A DNA stretch of 64,000 bases, from NCBI GenBank assembly GCA_947458275.1, contig CANGYR010000010.1, positions 1 through 64,000 on the forward strand. Direction: 5' to 3'. Within the stretch, counting starts at the first letter, position 1. Each line of letters starts with the position of its first letter. Both the position numbers and the translations under genes were made by a program. The notes under the pieces were generated by a model. That model ran no database searches. It saw only the letters and a list, made by a program, of their open reading frames with translations, and had not been told where the DNA came from. The DNA is from Chitinophagaceae bacterium. Its GTDB lineage: Bacteria; Bacteroidota; Bacteroidia; Chitinophagales; Chitinophagaceae. Below, one piece after another: positions 20,047-60,157 of the stretch.

Positions 20047-20553
20047 ATAGACCAGGTAGAAAATAGTGGTTTAGTCGTTTGGATGGTTTATGTTTTTTGA
20101 GGACAATGATGTATCTAAACTCCTAAATTTCTCAACGATCTAAAGGCTATCGTCACCGCCTCGTGTTTTCACGAGCGGCTTAAACAACTCACGTTTAAAA
20201 CCTTTCCCACGGTTAAAACCGTGGGCTATTCATATATGTAAATCTTGTAGTTGATAACACCAATCGGTAAAATTCGATTGGTGCTGAATTCTTTAGATAT
20301 TAATCTGTTAGATCAATTAATTATTGTGCCGGAAGAAAAATATTTGAGTCAGAGTGAGATGGGGTTGATTTAGGTGGCGCGGTTTTTAAAAAAATATTCA
20401 TAATTACATAATGAAACTGCTTTTTTGGGTCTTGTTTCAAATTAGCTTATAAATCTTTTTTTGATATCTTGTAACGCTTCAATAAGTGATTTGAATCATT
20501 ATGATTTATGCTAGTTTGAGACAAGAAAATTTGTCAATTTTTAAAATTAAAAA
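20047..20553. repeat. Repeat-filled spacer between antitoxin and DUF4160-like gene
   Basis: About 500 bp without a credible gene. It contains a TAAAC-type tract (20110-20140), the second CTCGTG-TTTT-CACGAG palindrome (20155-20180), a CCCACGG-TTAAAA-CCGTGGG palindrome (20206-20225) and an inverted repeat CCAATCG/CGATTGG (20260-20281) next to GATAACACCAA. The remaining 200 bp before 20554 is AT-rich with nothing recognised. Confidence 0.65.
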
Positions 20554-52738: not shown

Positions 52739-53018
52739 AAGAAGAAATAATAAATAAGAAAGTATAAATAAGGAATAAGGAAGTGGAATGTAAAATATCG
52801 AATATCCAATGTATAATGTAAAAGTAGTACAACAGCAGAGCAGTCCCGTAGGAACGACAGGTCTCTAACAAAAGATATCATCCGCTTACTCGTCCCGTAG
52901 GGAAGATACGTATCTTCAATGATGAATAGCCCATGGTTAAAACCATGGGAAAAATGGATACTCCTTGATTTTAACCATGGGAATATTGCTCAAATTTTTT
53001 TATTTCCCTAAAAAACGC
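52739..53018. repeat. Nested repeat cluster upstream of the his promoter
   Basis: Successive elements: an inverted ATTCAATATT block with AATAAGGAAT (52768-52826), GTTCCGTAGGAAC-family copies at 52842-52866 and 52891-52917, a full CCATGG-TTAAAA-CCATGG palindrome (52924-52952) and a half copy (52966-52986). No gene is seen. Together with 52707-52738 this gap carries four of the window's repeat families. Confidence 0.75.
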
Positions 53019-53026
53019 TACATTTG
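53019..53026 (+). promoter_or_regulatory. -7 promoter element of the his operon
   Basis: TACATTTG, 17 nt before the his leader peptide ATG. No TTG at the usual spacing, so the -33 element is weak or the promoter is activated. Confidence 0.6.
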
Positions 53027-53043
53027 CATTGCAAAAATTTAAT

Positions 53044-53100
53044 ATGTCAATTAGTACTATACATCATCACCATCATGCTTTCGCCCAGGCGAGGGGATAG
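53044..53100 (+). CDS. hisL: his operon leader peptide
   Basis: 18 codons encoding MSISTIHHHHHAFAQARG, with five consecutive His codons (CAT CAT CAC CAT CAT, 53062-53076) and a TAG stop, 106 nt before hisG. This is the classical architecture of ribosome-sensing attenuation in amino-acid operons. Codons CAG GCG AGG G (53086-53095) are complementary to CCCGCCTG at 53137-53144, the 5' arm of the following terminator. When His-tRNA is scarce, a ribosome stalled on the His run leaves this segment free to form the antiterminator; a ribosome reaching the stop codon masks it. Confidence 0.85.
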   Translation: MSISTIHHHHHAFAQARG

Positions 53101-53135
53101 TGATTTATTGTATTAGCTAAATATAATATTCCAAG

Positions 53136-53170
53136 ACCCGCCTGAGTGAATCGGACGGGTTTTTTGTTTT
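53136..53170 (+). terminator. his attenuator terminator
   Basis: ACCCG.CC (53136-53142) pairs with GG.CGGGT (53153-53160, one bulged A), followed by TTTTTTGTTTT. It ends 37 nt before hisG. The 5' arm is shared with the antiterminator pairing described for the leader peptide. Confidence 0.8.
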
Positions 53171-53206
53171 ATTCATTTCGGTTCATTCAGGCACAAAAAC
53201 AACATT

Positions 53207-54061
53207 ATGAGTTTGAAAATTGCCATTCAGAAAAGCGGAAGACTCAGCGAGAAATCGCTCGGCTTGCTGGCAGAATGCGGTATTAAAATCAATAACGGCG
53301 ATAGAAAGCTGAAGGCAGAAGCCAAAAACTTTCCGGTAGAAGTATTGTTTCTGAGAGACGACGATATTCCGCAATATGTGGAACAAGGCGTGGCGGACAT
53401 CGGCATTCTCGGTGAAAATGAAGTATGGGAAAAAGACAAGAAAGTCAGCGTTGTCAGAAAACTGGGTTTTGCTTCATGTAAACTTTCATTGGCTATTCCC
53501 AAAGATGAAAAATATACGGGACTCAATTATTTCGAAGGAAAGAAAATTGCTACCAGCTATCCTAAAATTCTGGAGAAGTTTTTTAAAGAAAAAAAGATCA
53601 ATGTTATCATTGAAGAAATCGGTGGCAGTGTGGAGATAGCTACAGGAATTGGTTTGGCTGATGCCATCTTCGATATCGTTAGTTCAGGAAGTACCTTGCT
53701 GATGAACGGACTCAAAGAAGTGGAGGTCGTAACTAAAAGCGAAGCGGTGCTCATCTCAGGGGAGTCATTGCCTAAAGAAAAACAAGATATCCTGGAAAAG
53801 TTGCTTTTCAGAATGGAGGCAACCAAAAAAGCATCTGAAAATAAATACATTTTACTCAATGCGCCGAATCACTCAATTGAAGCCATTAAAAAATTATTAC
53901 CGGGCATGAAAGCACCCACCATTTTGCCATTGGCAGATGAAGGATGGAGCAGCATTCACTCCGTAATCGGTGAAGATGATTTCTGGGAAGTGATTGATCA
54001 ATTAAAAAAACACGGCGCGCAGGGAATATTGGTAGTGCCTATTGAAAAAATGATTCTTTAA
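53207..54061 (+). CDS. hisG: ATP phosphoribosyltransferase, long form
   Basis: First enzyme of histidine synthesis (ATP + PRPP to PR-ATP). 284 residues, the long form with a C-terminal regulatory ACT-like domain (about 205-284: GMKAPTILPLADEGWSSIHSV), so feedback inhibition by His does not need HisZ. The catalytic part has KIAIQKSGRLSEKSL at the start and the PRPP loop IFDIVSSGSTLL. First structural gene after the attenuator. Confidence 0.96.
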   Translation: MSLKIAIQKSGRLSEKSLGLLAECGIKINNGDRKLKAEAKNFPVEVLFLRDDDIPQYVEQGVADIGILGENEVWEKDKKVSVVRKLGFASCKLSLAIPKDEKYTGLNYFEGKKIATSYPKILEKFFKEKKINVIIEEIGGSVEIATGIGLADAIFDIVSSGSTLLMNGLKEVEVVTKSEAVLISGESLPKEKQDILEKLLFRMEATKKASENKYILLNAPNHSIEAIKKLLPGMKAPTILPLADEGWSSIHSVIGEDDFWEVIDQLKKHGAQGILVVPIEKMIL

Positions 54062-54088: not shown

Positions 54089-55411
54089 ATGCAACAGTTT
54101 AATAATCCCATAATCGAAACTTGGTCTGAATTGGCTCAAAGGCCGGTAATCGATTTGTCAAAACTCAATAAAATCGTTGAAAAAGTTTTTGATGAGGTAA
54201 AGAATAATGGAGATAAAGCGGTAAAAAAATATACGCTTGAATTTGATAAGGTGGAGACGGACGATTTGAGAGTAAGTAAACAACAAATCAACGAATCTGA
54301 AAGGTCAATCTCAAAGAGTTTGATTAAAGCGATCAGACAGGCAAAGAGTAATATTGAAAAATTTCACGCAGCACAAAAAGAAAAAGTAAAACGCATTGAG
54401 ACCACCAAAGGAATTCAATGTTGGAGAGAGAGTCGTGCTATTGAGAAAGTAGGCATCTACATTCCGGGCGGCAGCGCTCCCCTGTTTTCAACGGTTCTCA
54501 TGCTCGGCATTCCCGCCAAAATTGCTGGGTGTAAAGAGATTGTTTTATGCACACCTCCTGATAAAAACGGCGATATCAATCCGGCTATTTTATTTGCTGC
54601 TAAATGTGTAGGAATTCAATCTGTTTTTAAAGTAGGCGGCATTCAAGCCATTGGGGCTATGACATTCGGTACGAATACCATTTCTAAAGTGGATAAAATA
54701 TTCGGTCCGGGCAATCAGTATGTTACCGCTGCTAAACAGCTGTCTCAACAATACGGCGTTGCCATCGATATGCCGGCTGGCCCGAGTGAAGTGTTGGTGA
54801 TTGCAGACAAAACCGCTGTGCCTGAATTTGTTGCGGCTGATTTATTGTCGCAGGCCGAACATGGTGCAGACAGTCAGGTGATTTTACTTTCTGATAACAA
54901 GGAATTTATTACCAAGACAATGAAAGCAGTTGATGATCAACTGGAAGCTTTACCAAGAAAAGAAATTGCAAAAAAAGCGCTGGACAACAGCAAAGCAATT
55001 TTATTGAAGAATATCAATGAGTGTATTGCATTCAGTAATTTGTACGCACCAGAGCATTTGATTCTTGCGGTTAAAAATGAAACTAAAATAGGCGATAAAA
55101 TAATCAATGCCGGTTCTGTGTTTCTTGGCAATTACAGTTGCGAAAGTGCCGGTGATTATGCCAGCGGTACCAATCATACTTTGCCTACTAACGGTTACGC
55201 ACGTAACTATAGTGGCGTATCGCTTGACAGTTTCATTAAAAAAATAACTTTTCAAAAAATATCAAAGCAGGGGATTAAAAATCTTGGTCCTGCCATAGAA
55301 TTGATGGCGGAAGCAGAGCAATTGAATGCGCACAAAAATGCAGTCAGCATTCGTCTGGCCACTGTCAACAAAACGAAGAAGCGTAAAGTTGCTACTTCAT
55401 CATCAAAATAA
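54089..55411 (+). CDS. hisD: Histidinol dehydrogenase
   Basis: Zinc enzyme catalysing the last two oxidations, histidinol to histidine. 440 residues. Zn ligands Gln255 and His258 in LLSQAEHGADSQ; IPGGSAPLFSTVLM and IDMPAGPSEVLVIAD are typical. The C-terminus has a Lys/Thr/Ser-rich extension of about 12 residues (KTKKRKVATSSSK), absent from most homologues. 27 bp after hisG. Confidence 0.97.
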   Translation: MQQFNNPIIETWSELAQRPVIDLSKLNKIVEKVFDEVKNNGDKAVKKYTLEFDKVETDDLRVSKQQINESERSISKSLIKAIRQAKSNIEKFHAAQKEKVKRIETTKGIQCWRESRAIEKVGIYIPGGSAPLFSTVLMLGIPAKIAGCKEIVLCTPPDKNGDINPAILFAAKCVGIQSVFKVGGIQAIGAMTFGTNTISKVDKIFGPGNQYVTAAKQLSQQYGVAIDMPAGPSEVLVIADKTAVPEFVAADLLSQAEHGADSQVILLSDNKEFITKTMKAVDDQLEALPRKEIAKKALDNSKAILLKNINECIAFSNLYAPEHLILAVKNETKIGDKIINAGSVFLGNYSCESAGDYASGTNHTLPTNGYARNYSGVSLDSFIKKITFQKISKQGIKNLGPAIELMAEAEQLNAHKNAVSIRLATVNKTKKRKVATSSSK

Positions 55412-55417
55412 CTGAAC

Positions 55418-56431
55418 ATGCAATCGTTTGATTTATATAAATATGTTCGTCCGAATATTGTTTCGCTAAAACCTTATTCCAGCGCAAGAGACGAGTTTAA
55501 AGGGAAAGAAGGCATTTTTCTGGATGCCAATGAAAATCCCATCGGAGCACTCAACAGGTATCCGGATCCTTATCAGGTTGAATTGAAAGCGGCTTTGAGT
55601 AAGATAAAAAATGTTGCACCTGAAAATATTTTTATCGGCAACGGAAGTGATGAAGTGATTGACCTTGTGTATAGAATTTTTTGTGATATTGATAAAGATG
55701 TAGTTATTACTTGTCCGCCTACCTATGGCATGTATGAAGTGTCGGCCAACATCAATAATATTCCCATTATCAATATTCCGCTGACAAATGATTTCGAATT
55801 GGATGTAGATAAAATTCTTTCAACCAAAGCAAAAATCGTTTTTGTCTGCTCGCCCAACAATCCCACCGCCAATAGTTTAAAAAACATTGAATACATCATT
55901 CAAAAATTTGACGGTATTGTTTTTGTAGACGAGGCCTATATTGATTTCAGCGAGCAACGATCATTGCTGGAAAAAATCAACGAATACCCCAATCTGATTG
56001 TATCACAGACATTCAGTAAAGCATGGGGCATGGCAGCAGTAAGAGTAGGAACGGCCTATGCAAGCAAAGAGATTATTGGTTTGTATAATAAGGTTAAACC
56101 GCCGTATAATGTTAGTCTGCTCAATCAGCAAGCCGTCATTGATGCGATGAAAAATATAGAATTATTTGAAAAAAATACAGCACTCATTCTCTCACAAAGA
56201 GAATGGCTGCACAAGGAATTATCGTCACTTGGTATCGTGAAGAAAATATATCCTTCCGATGCTAATTTTTTGTTGGTAGAGGTCACGGATGCTGATTTTA
56301 TTTATAATACACTGGCAAACAAAAAAATTGTCACACGCAACAGAAACAGCGTAGTGAAAAATTGTATTCGGATAACAGTCGGTACCCCCGATGAGAATAT
56401 TGAATTGATTAATGCAATGAAAAAAATATAA
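55418..56431 (+). CDS. hisC: Histidinol-phosphate aminotransferase
   Basis: PLP enzyme converting imidazole-acetol phosphate to histidinol phosphate. 337 residues. PLP lysine Lys201 in [25 protein letters not shown] at the N-terminus and [16 protein letters not shown] are the expected aspartate-aminotransferase-fold motifs. Six bp after hisD. Confidence 0.96.
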
Positions 56432-56441
56432 CATAATCAAA

Positions 56442-57533
56442 ATGAAAAAGCTTTTATTCATCGATAGAGACGGTACGCTGATTATAGAGCCACCGGTTGA
56501 TTTTCAGGTTGATAGTCTGGATAAACTTGAATTCTATCCTGAAGTATTTCAGTACCTGTCGCGCATTGTAAAGGAACTCGATTATGAATTGATTATGGTA
56601 ACCAATCAGGATGGATTGGGGACAGATTCTTTTCCGGAGGATACATTCTGGCCTGCACAGAATAAAGTCATCAAAGCATTTGAGAATGAAGGAATTAAAT
56701 TTTCTGAAATATTGATTGATCGTTCTTTTGCACATGAGAACATGCCCACGCGCAAGCCGGGAACAGGGTTGCTTACGCACTATCTGAAAGGGAATTATGA
56801 CTTGGCGAATTCCTATGTTATAGGCGACAGAAAAACGGATGTAGAATTGGCCAACAATATAGGATGTAAATCTATTTTTATTGCTGCTGAAAACCATCCT
56901 GAGTCGGCACTAACTACAACGAAATGGAGTGATATCTATACCTTCCTTTCTTCTCAACCCAGAAAGGCAAAAGTGCAGCGCAATACTTCCGAGACAAAAA
57001 TCAGTATTGAATTGAATCTGGATGGTGCCGGTAAAAGTCAGATTTCAACGGGACTTGGATTTTTTGATCATATGCTGGAGCAGATTGCCAAACACGGCAA
57101 TATGGATTTGAACATTCATGTTGATGGCGATCTCCACATAGATGAGCATCACACTATTGAAGATGTGGCCATCAGTTTAGGAGAAGCGTTTCTCAAAGCC
57201 CTCGGCACAAAAAAAGGCATTGAGCGTTACGGCTTCTTATTACCCATGGATGATTGTCTGGCTCAGGTAGCTATTGATTTTGGCGGAAGACCCTGGTTGG
57301 TATGGGAGGTGGATTTTAAAAGAGAAAAAATTGGTGAAATGCCCACGGAGATGTTTATGCATTTCTTCAAATCATTCAGCGACAATGCAAAATGCAATCT
57401 GAATATCAAAGCTGAAGGAGATAATGAACACCATAAGATAGAAGCTATTTTCAAAGCATTCACCAAAGCCATCAGAATGGCGGTGTCAAAAACCGGAAAT
57501 TTTAGCATCCCCAGTACGAAAGGAGTATTATGA
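56442..57533 (+). CDS. hisB: Bifunctional histidinol-phosphatase/imidazoleglycerol-phosphate dehydratase
   Basis: 363 residues. N-terminal HAD phosphatase (about 1-165) with D8-R-D10-GTL nucleophile/acid pair; C-terminal dehydratase (about 175-363) with Mn-binding HHTIEDVAI and [14 protein letters not shown]. The fused form is shared with Enterobacteria and Bacteroidota and is often explained by transfer between them. Its stop codon overlaps the hisH start (ATGA). Confidence 0.96.
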
Positions 57534-58114
57534 TAGTGATTATTAAATACAATGCGGGCAATATTGAATCTGTAAAAAATGCTGTAGAGCGTTTGGGATT
57601 TGAATGTGTGGTGTCGGACAATAAAGAAGAGATATTGAAAGCGGATAAAATTATTTTTCCCGGTGTGGGTGAAGCGGGCTCTGCGATGAAATATCTCAGA
57701 GAAAGAAAAATGGATGAACTCATTCTTTCCCTAAAGCAGCCGGTATTGGGTATTTGTCTGGGACAGCAACTGATGTGTAAACATTCAGAAGAAGGAGATA
57801 CAGCTTGTCTCGGTATTTTTGATGCAAGCGTGAAAAAATTCCCCCCGCTGGATACCGTTCCCCACATGGGTTGGAATAACCTTCACGCTCTGAAGTCTCC
57901 ATTGTTTACCGGCATCGGCGAAAACGACGATGTATATTTTGTACACAGTTATTATGCGGAACAGACTAAGGAAACGATAGCGCTTTGTGATTATATACTT
58001 CCTTTTAGTGCGGCAATGCAAAAAGATAATTTCTATGCCACACAGTTTCATCCGGAAAAATCTGCCGGCGTGGGAGAAAAAATATTGTTGAATTTTTTAA
58101 ATATTAATAGATGA
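57530..58114 (+). CDS. hisH: Imidazole glycerol phosphate synthase, glutaminase subunit
   Basis: Class I glutamine amidotransferase that feeds ammonia to HisF. 194 residues. Triad Cys76 (GICLGQQLM), His174 and Glu176 (QFHPEKSAG). Overlaps hisB and hisA by 4 nt each, favouring translational coupling. Confidence 0.96.
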
Positions 58115-58824
58115 GGATTATTCCTGCGATAGATATCATCAATGGAAAGTGTGTGCGGCTCACCAAGGGAGACTATGCCACTCAAAAAATTTATAATGAA
58201 AATCCTTTAGAGGTAGCTAAGGAATTTGAAGATAACGGTATCGAATACCTGCATTTGGTGGATTTGGACGGCGCGAAATCTTCGCATATAGTCAATCATA
58301 AAGTTTTGTATGCTATTTCAACTGCAACGAAACTGAAAATTGATTTTGGTGGCGGATTGAAATCAAATGAAGATGTACGCATTGCATTTGAAAATGGCGC
58401 ATCGCAAATTACAGGCGGAAGCATTGCTGTTAAAAATCCGACTCTGTTTAAGGAATGGATAGCAAAATATGGAGCAGAAAAAATTATTTTGGGTGCCGAT
58501 GCCAACAACAGGAAAATAGCCACTTCCGGCTGGCTGGAAAGCTCAGAGAAAGACGTGGTGGATTTCATTGCCGGATATCATACCGAAGGCATTGAATATG
58601 TGGTGTGTACTGATATCTCTAAAGATGGCATGTTGGGCGGAGCTGCAAATGAATTATACGAAGAGATTTTATCGAAAGTAAAAATCAAGCTTATTGCCAG
58701 TGGAGGAGTTTCCTGCATGAATGATTTACATTCGCTGAAACAAATCGGCTGCGATGGAGCTATCGTTGGTAAGGCAATCTATGAAGGGAAAATTAGTTTA
58801 AAAGAGTTGAGTACATTATGTTGA
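58111..58824 (+). CDS. hisA: ProFAR isomerase
   Basis: (Beta-alpha)8 barrel that isomerises ProFAR to PRFAR. 237 residues. Catalytic Asp8 ([14 protein letters not shown]) and Asp near 129 (ILGADANN); phosphate loops GGGLKS and SGGVS. Overlaps hisH by 4 nt and hisF by 7 nt. Confidence 0.96.
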
Positions 58825-59570
58825 AAAAACGCATCATACCTTGTCTGGATATAAAAGACGGCAGAACCGTAAAGGGAGTGAACTTTATTGATATCCGTGA
58901 TGCCGGTGATCCGATTGAGTTGGCGAAGCGATATATAGATGAAGGCGCTGATGAGCTGGTATTTTTGGATATTACCGCCACTATTGAAAAAAGAAAAACA
59001 CTGGCGGAGTTGGTGAAAAGAATTGCACGTGAGATAAACATTCCTTTTACCGTTGGCGGCGGCATCAATTCATTGGAAGATGCTAAAGCTGTTATTCATG
59101 CGGGTGCAGATAAAGTGAGTATCAATTCTTCCGCAGTTAAAAATCCTTCGTTGATTACCGAGATTGCCAATGAGTTTGGCGCTCAATGTGTGGTAGTGGC
59201 GATAGATGTAAAAAATGAAACCGATGGCTGGAAAGTATATGTGAGTGGAGGAAAAATACCTACGGGGATTGATGCTGTTGAATGGGCGGTGCAGGCTGAA
59301 GAGCGGGGAGCGGGAGAGATATTACTGACATCAATGAATAACGATGGAACAAAATCGGGCTTTGCCATTGAAATAACAGATGCAATCAGCAAAGCGGTGA
59401 ACATACCGGTTATTGCTTCAGGCGGTGCAGGAGAGAAAGTTCATTTTAAAGAGGTGTTTGAACAAACAAAAGCTTCGGCCGCACTGGCAGCCAGTATTTT
59501 TCATTTTGGTGAAATTCCAATTCCGGAATTAAAAATATATTTACAACAAGAAAATATCCCCATACGATGA
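58818..59570 (+). CDS. hisF: Imidazole glycerol phosphate synthase, cyclase subunit
   Basis: Barrel that uses HisH ammonia to form IGP and AICAR. 250 residues. Catalytic Asp11 ([14 protein letters not shown]) and Asp near 130 (VVAIDVKN); GGGINS and SGGAGE phosphate-binding loops. Overlaps hisIE by 4 nt. Confidence 0.97.
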
Positions 59571-60157
59571 GTATAGATTTTAATAAAGTAAACGGACTGG
59601 TACCTGTCATCATTCAGGACAACCAAACATTGCAGGTGCTGATGCTCGGTTATATGAATGAAGAGGCATTGAATAAAACCAGGCAGGAAGGAAAAGTTAC
59701 TTTTTTCAGCAGAAGTAAAAATCGTTTGTGGACCAAAGGAGAGTCCTCAGGAAATTTTCTTTCAGTAGATGACATCAAAGAGGATTGTGACAATGACACA
59801 ATTTTAATTAAAGCTACACCGGCAGGCCCTACCTGTCATGCCGGAACAGTTTCTTGTTTTAATGAAGATACGAGCAAAGGTTTTTTATATCAATTAGAAA
59901 AAACCATTGCGCAAAGAATTGACAGTAATGATGAAGATTCTTATACCAATAAGTTATATAAAAGAGGTATCAATAAAGTAGCGCAAAAAGTGGGAGAGGA
60001 AGCCGTTGAGTTGGTGATTGAGTCGAAAGACAATAACGAGGAGTTGTTTAAAAATGAGGCGGCAGATTTATTGTATCATTTACTGATATTATTGAAAGCA
60101 AAAAAGATTCAATTGCAGGATATTGAAGCTGTATTAAAATCAAGAATAAAAAAATAA
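59567..60157 (+). CDS. hisIE: Bifunctional phosphoribosyl-AMP cyclohydrolase/phosphoribosyl-ATP diphosphatase
   Basis: Steps two and three of the pathway in one chain of 196 residues. HisI part (about 1-110): [23 protein letters not shown] metal site and [12 protein letters not shown]. HisE part (about 110-196): [19 protein letters not shown] and [11 protein letters not shown]. Last his gene; cdsA begins 4 nt after its stop. Confidence 0.96.

Follow-up and report, generated by a model that had tools for sequence, protein, structure and literature searches.

A putative ribosome-mediated his operon attenuator of Bacteroidota with a conserved, covarying strand between terminator and hisG

Introduction

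The histidine operon leader of Escherichia coli adopts alternative sets of hairpins, AB, CD and EF or BC and DE (PMC10989985), and the K-12 sequence of hisL (Rfam RF00514, His_leader) combines a leader peptide carrying a run of His codons with a T-tailed hairpin before hisG. A 2010 survey, which added the Firmicutes, described leader-peptide systems as previously known only from Proteobacteria and Actinobacteria (PMC2965389); in 2013 amino-acid attenuators were described as few in Rfam (PMC3766115), and in 2022 his attenuators were listed for 17 Firmicutes genomes (PMC9413887). In the Flavobacterium psychrophilum transcriptome, amino-acid operons were noted to have clues to leader-peptide attenuation in their upstream regions, and hisG of this species and of other Flavobacteriaceae is preceded by a conserved, structured element that has no Rfam hits (PMC9723704). 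Small ORFs resembling attenuation leaders lie in long 5′ UTRs of Bacteroides thetaiotaomicron (PMC7366714), and Bacteroid-trp RNA appears as a table entry (RF01692; PMC2864571). Some amino-acid attenuators sequester a ribosome site in place of forming a terminator (PMC9413887), and the tetQ leader of Bacteroides acts on translation of the next gene (PMC5418344, table).

The locus analysed here lies in a stretch of 64,000 nucleotides from a Chitinophagaceae bacterium (GenBank CANGYR010000010.1, positions 1 to 64,000), referred to below as the window. Amino-acid attenuators, some of them in Bacteroidetes, are also said to have been predicted by Vitreschak et al. in 2004 and Lopatovskaya et al. 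in 2010. For the window, a sequence-only reading had proposed a his attenuator in which CAGGCG of the leader and CGCCTG of the terminator compete.

Methods

hisG loci were collected from three sources: the genome of the window and 58 relatives, with matches in 20 of these 59 genomes (own genome counted); contigs of named genomes (the best 80 of 479 relatives); and a phylum-wide draw with matches in 192 of 394, from which 28 new loci and 40 further stretches were used, the latter picked by hand among the matches listed (33 of the window’s own class, seven of other classes). Three of 168 loci (L138, L147 and L154) were not re-found by tblastn and 165 were parsed. To pass the strict parse, a locus needed a His-run ORF as well as a hisG start that could be recognised. 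Identical rows were merged separately for each analysis, each with its own key, giving 65, 48, 87, 80 and 87 + 32 rows.

Pairings (strand numbers as in Table 1) were tested by comparing the partner strands of each locus with partners swapped between loci in 5000 permutations. The first set comprised 65 unique loci with a terminator arm of the CGYYTGA type, and the held-out set 22 unique loci outside the first. Swaps between related loci carry effects of ancestry, and an independent-pair test was therefore used for 3:5, with pairs taken from non-overlapping branches of a FastTree tree of hisG and pooled, since tests per position had too few pairs each. Helices involving strand 5 were sought by matching the arm and loop of the terminator to the spacer upstream of hisG. 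A test of loop positions, anchored without recourse to the loop, drew on 73 of the 97 loci with this terminator type, of which 56 entered the independent-pair test.

Results

Organisation of the hisG leader

All three elements named in the sequence-only reading, a promoter element at 53019, a leader peptide with five His codons and, ahead of hisG, a T-tailed hairpin, were located in the window (Table 1), and transcription presumably starts near 53032. The hairpin had been placed at 53136–53170; it is real, and lies a few bases further 5′, at 53133–53163 with the U-run ending at 53165 (−14.4 kcal/mol by folding of the window). A scan of the window for hairpin patterns did not list it; the stem has mismatches. 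Of the complementarity proposed for CAGGCG(A)GGG, eight pairs with CCCGCCTG and one bulged A are found (−15.1 kcal/mol), while the third G of GGG is unpaired. Counting overlaps, CAYCAYCAYCAY has 41 matches on both strands of the 2.89-Mb genome (a chance rate of ~0.1% per given 190-base stretch of one strand), so its occurrence upstream of hisG is not expected by chance.

Table 1 Features of the putative his attenuator and operon in the window.
Feature	Position	Strand	Basis
−7 promoter element TACATTTG, fits TAnnTTTG, Bacteroidota-type	53019..53026	+	read directly, script-located
Leader peptide ORF MSISTIHHHHHAFAQARG, 18 codons, ATG...TAG	53044..53100	+	read directly, script-located
Putative sensor, five consecutive His codons	53062..53076	+	script-located
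1:2 hairpin (putative protector), last His and next leader codons against GGCGAGGGG and stop region	53071..53102	+	
Strand 2, CAGGCG(A)GG, putative antiterminator half within the leader	53086..53094	+	own-versus-permuted pairing
Strand 3, terminator 5′ arm (53133–53145) plus loop (53146–53150)	53133..53150	+	folding
Strand 4, terminator 3′ arm (to 53163) and U-run (53160–53165)	53151..53165	+	folding
Strand 5, TTCGGTTCATTCAGGC, 16 pairs with 53140–53155, ends 14 nt before hisG	53177..53192	+	
hisG (ATP phosphoribosyltransferase), first gene of the operon, ATG at 53207	53207..54061	+	ORF
Remaining his operon, seven ORFs	54089..60157	+	ORF list

The first ORF of the operon, named from its sequence, we take to be hisG, its agreement with the E. 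coli hisG annotation being by position only; the seven that follow, recognised from their protein sequences, are presumably hisD, hisC, hisB, hisH, hisA, hisF and hisIE. Upstream of the promoter, a palindrome (CCCATGGTTAAAACCATGGG; 52930–52949) recurs with up to two mismatches at 953–972 and 20206–20225; it has five strand matches in the window (0.03 expected) and looks like a dispersed repeat.

Conserved alternative pairings

Comparison across loci indicates that the window and its relatives carry four conserved predicted pairings, 1:2, 2:3, 3:4 and 3:5. Among the 65 loci of the first set, own partners pair more stably than permuted ones for 2:3 (−12.37 vs −10.96 kcal/mol), 3:4 (−14.46 vs −12.74 kcal/mol) and 3:5 (−11.88 vs −9.56 kcal/mol), and in no case was any of the 5000 permutations as low. 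The control pairing 2:5 was equalled or bettered by 1945 of 5000. For the 22 held-out loci the result was 0/5000 for each of 2:3, 3:4 and 3:5, and 3485/5000 for 2:5. Strand 5 was accordingly rejected as a partner of strand 2, being no better there than permuted strands in either set. The competition between CAGGCG and CGCCTG anticipated from the window thus stands, own 2:3 partners surpassing every permutation in both sets.

The sequence-only reading had also supposed that a ribosome at the stop codon would itself do the work of a third hairpin. This part is not supported, and the absence of a third hairpin was rejected. The window has a 1:2 hairpin of its own (−13.2 kcal/mol), and the pairing is conserved: own strands pair at −9.85 kcal/mol against −8.07 kcal/mol for permuted ones (0/5000; 106 loci), and the leader stretch is more stable than its shuffles, with a mean z of −1.84 and 71% of 111 loci below −1.

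Leader, terminator and promoter in other hisG loci

Under the strict parse a His-run leader is present in 137 of the 165 loci and a T-tailed hairpin, weak in a few, in 129 of these 137, where all three counts include duplicates (L010 and L067 have a common leader and spacer, and L109 is L040 again) and doubtful rows (e.g. L114, L155, L156, L159 and L171). The sequence-only reading therefore withstands the check proposed with it, whether relatives have lost the His run or the 2:3 complementarity. The strict parse was failed by 28 of the 165 loci, with the T-tailed hairpin absent from eight more; for some (L018, L068, L091) the cause is a short contig end or a stretch of N, and a His run is visible by eye in the failed loci L018, L025, L085, L095, L100 and L123. 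Among failed loci, no His run was seen in L030–L032 and L081. By a looser rule, a His-run ORF lies upstream of hisG in 90 of the first 100 loci. The longest His run is at least four codons in 93 of 129 loci, and in strictly parsed loci the median distance from leader stop to hisG is 109 nt. Of 127 loci, 91 have TAnnTTTG no more than 60 nt upstream of the leader start (shuffles predict 5.2), and in 60 of these 91 it precedes the start by 17–20 nt.

Congeners with another type of hisG keep the His run and have a different terminator, which their strand 2 matches in turn (GGTAAGC with GCTTACC). hisG was found in 13 of 35 genomes of the same genus (loci L010 and L013–L025); 12 of the 13 are 59–63% identical to that of the window, and only the one from G031 reaches 75%. 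Among the best 80 of 479 relatives, the closest named record, titled Flavobacteriia, has 82% identity. The operon and its attenuator may have been exchanged between lineages. Two perhaps misbinned contigs, one titled Alphaproteobacteria and one Candidatus Kuenenia (L081, L096), carry hisG genes 74–76% identical to that of the window. In one hisG family (f27; L114, L117, L119, L124, L125) leaders end in HHFHHSS, a short hairpin lies at their stop codon, and the parse found the T-tailed hairpin weak in L114 and absent from the other four; these are possibly another, terminator-free kind of his leader.

Order of folding

When the window transcript is folded at growing length without a ribosome, 1:2 is the first pairing to form (53125) and holds from 53125 to 53147, 2:3 is briefly preferred over it at lengths 53150–53152, and 1:2 plus 3:4 prevail from 53158 to 53180, the last fold before strand 5 exists. 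As long as strand 4 has not been made, 1:2 and 2:3 are close in energy. For a ribosome that stalls near the beginning of the His run, the predicted fold is 2:3 between 53147 and 53158, 3:4 at 53166 and once more 2:3 at 53180; a ribosome at the stop codon leaves 3:4 as the only pairing. Folding at full length prefers 3:4 even in the stalled state (a mean of 0.57 of strand 3, vs 0.03 for 2:3; 87 loci). Since 3:4 is preferred at 53166 when the ribosome is stalled, the stalled outcome rests on the order of events. This is so in other attenuators too.

A fifth strand between terminator and hisG

Strand 5, which is absent from the sequence-only description, is complementary over 16 consecutive pairs to the upper 5′ arm of the terminator, its loop and the first bases of strand 4, and in the window this helix, once transcribed, outcompetes the terminator (−25.1 against −15.0 kcal/mol). 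Of the 87 unique loci with this terminator type, 61 have a 3:5 helix of at least eight pairs (9.1% in shuffled spacers) and 26 lack one, and 47 have at least ten contiguous pairs (0.9% in shuffled spacers). With other terminator types, one of 32 unique loci has a helix of at least eight pairs (shuffled, 5.0%). In a separate count the helix was present in 55 of 80 unique loci and in 87 of 970 shuffled ones. Its boundaries are regular: it starts at the same G, just inside the C run of the lower stem, in 43 of the 55 loci, enters that C run in one case and by one base, and has its 3′ end 13–20 nt before the ATG in 48 of 55. Three loci of the same terminator type (L145, L163, L167), with 23–27 nt between terminator and hisG, have no recognisable strand 5, as if it had been deleted.

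Covariation was also seen in the anchored test, where the loop was compared with strand 5: loop positions match their own strand 5 at 4.21 of 6 positions and those of other loci at 3.57 (0/10000; 48 unique rows). Closely related Flavobacterium-like loci provide examples (GTGTAC with GTACAT; GTATAT with ATATAC). In 19 independent pairs of loci, own strands were better in 13, swapped strands in none, and six were ties (sign test, p = 2.4e-4); when loci were paired at random instead of with the nearest, the average was 8.7 vs 0.8 of 12.3.

Strand 5 was rejected as an antiterminator, being located past the U-run, and as a general feature of his attenuators, since it was found neither in E. coli nor in 31 of 32 loci with other terminators.

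In equilibrium folding 3:5 outcompetes 3:4 in only four of 87 loci, the window included. Openness of the region −15..+6 is the same in both ribosome states (0.61 vs 0.63; 87 loci), and −25..−1 is more open on stalling in 16 and less open in 14 of the 87. For the window, 3:5 is predicted whichever state the ribosome is in, and the unpaired fraction of the start region is 0.82 for the stop-codon state vs 0.63 for the stalled one. This is the opposite of what a simple gate would predict, and equilibrium folding thus speaks against a simple mask of the ribosome site. That the 3:5 helix ends at the apex base had suggested a terminator pseudoknot, in which the lower stem would persist while the apex pairs with strand 5; by our estimate, its connecting loop is probably too short to allow the whole helix.

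Comparison with described systems

With six strands (A–F) in the E. coli his leader (PMC10989985) and four switching strands plus a fifth in the window, the earlier view of a design simpler than the enterobacterial one is borne out. In the E. coli spacer no fifth strand was found, the longest complement being 5 nt, a length reached by 395 of 500 shuffles. The element 5′ of hisG in Flavobacteriaceae precedes the same gene and probably belongs to the same phylum as the window, and in the excerpts of PMC9723704 neither its strands nor a 1:2 hairpin or fifth strand are described. Bacteroid-trp likewise has an amino-acid-run leader, with three consecutive Trp codons and a T-tailed hairpin in all ten loci compared (L177–L186), and differs in its operon (trp) and sequences; no fifth strand was seen by eye in these ten loci. 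The tetQ attenuator responds to tetracycline, unlike a his leader, and the translational attenuators treated in the excerpts of PMC9413887 have sequestration in place of a terminator, whereas that of the window would have both. No description of a fifth strand was found in the excerpted open-licence literature, where search terms could not name such a strand directly. As far as seen, the core is thus of a kind already known and the fifth strand is new.

Discussion

The leader of the window looks, from its sequence and predicted folds, like the core of a classical four-strand, ribosome-mediated transcription attenuator of the his operon. It has a run of codons for the operon’s own amino acid, an intrinsic terminator, a covarying antiterminator, and a 1:2 protector predicted to form without a ribosome. 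If no ribosome is on the leader, 1:2 would form and leave strand 3 free for strand 4, resulting in termination. If charged tRNA-His is short, a ribosome would stall at the His codons and cover strand 1, strand 2 would then take strand 3, and RNA polymerase would continue into hisG. If histidine is plentiful, a ribosome at the stop codon would cover strands 1 and 2, so that 3:4 terminates transcription. We consider it very probable that the window carries such a core together with a functional 3:5 pairing, a judgement that does not extend to any translational gate.

Other accounts of the core fare less well. Control by a T-box, riboswitch or other known Rfam element, with the His run incidental, is hardly credible: the Rfam search of the window rejected every family at gathering score, and the best of the weak matches to the leader is His_leader itself (RF00514; 20.6 bits against a cut-off of 49, E 0.29). 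RF01692 is not among the seven leader matches up to E 5, and has none in the window’s genome under stricter filters. A two-hairpin switch lacking a protector, with strand 2 masked solely by a ribosome at the stop codon and read-through as the default for an untranslated leader, draws on the stop codon lying a few nt past strand 2, which a terminating ribosome must therefore cover, and on the preference of the window for 2:3 at 53150–53152 when neither ribosome nor strand 4 is present. The stability of 1:2, its formation ahead of all other pairings and its conservation make this improbable, as does the prediction of 1:2 plus terminator from 53158 onwards without a ribosome. As for strand 5, it is very unlikely that it has no functional RNA pairing and matches strand 3 by chance or shared ancestry. 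Many of the loci are related, and in 83 of 87 the 3:5 helix is not favoured at equilibrium, but the independent pairs, which never favour swapped strands, the held-out set, the long helices in more than half of the loci and their near confinement to this terminator type all argue for pairing.

Because strand 5 is transcribed past the U-run, it should take no part in the termination decision, and it probably acts on read-through mRNA. There it could re-pair the upper arm and loop of the terminator, directly upstream of the hisG ribosome-binding region, and might constitute a second gate on hisG translation, closing when strand 3 is free of strand 2. Given an attenuator core with functional 3:5, a translational gate is our best guess, if a tentative one that falls short of even confidence, because strand 2 would hold strand 3 only at low histidine and because the helix abuts the ribosome-binding region. 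Almost equally likely is that it affects mRNA stability or helps to keep the start region open. Here the 3:5 hairpin would protect the mRNA or free the start, with no switching involved, a possibility to be entertained with some doubt: the start region of the window is mostly unpaired beside 3:5 when the ribosome is at the stop codon, and the distance from helix to ATG is almost constant, yet an insulating hairpin has no need to complement the switching strand itself, as strand 5 does, and the rarity of 3:5 as the favoured fold also counts against it. Similarly doubtful, though possible, is a five-strand attenuator in a large part of the Bacteroidota, in which strand 3 would be common to antiterminator, terminator and a partner near the start codon, and the leader ribosome would control both termination and, on read-through mRNA, hisG translation.

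These results indicate that histidine synthesis is widely subject to leader-peptide attenuation in the phylum, in a version that is matched by no Rfam model here, and that the his attenuator of this phylum carries a conserved, covarying strand downstream of its terminator. The role of this fifth strand is open to simple reporter-fusion tests. A strand that can come into play only once termination has been decided suggests that a textbook system has a further level of control.
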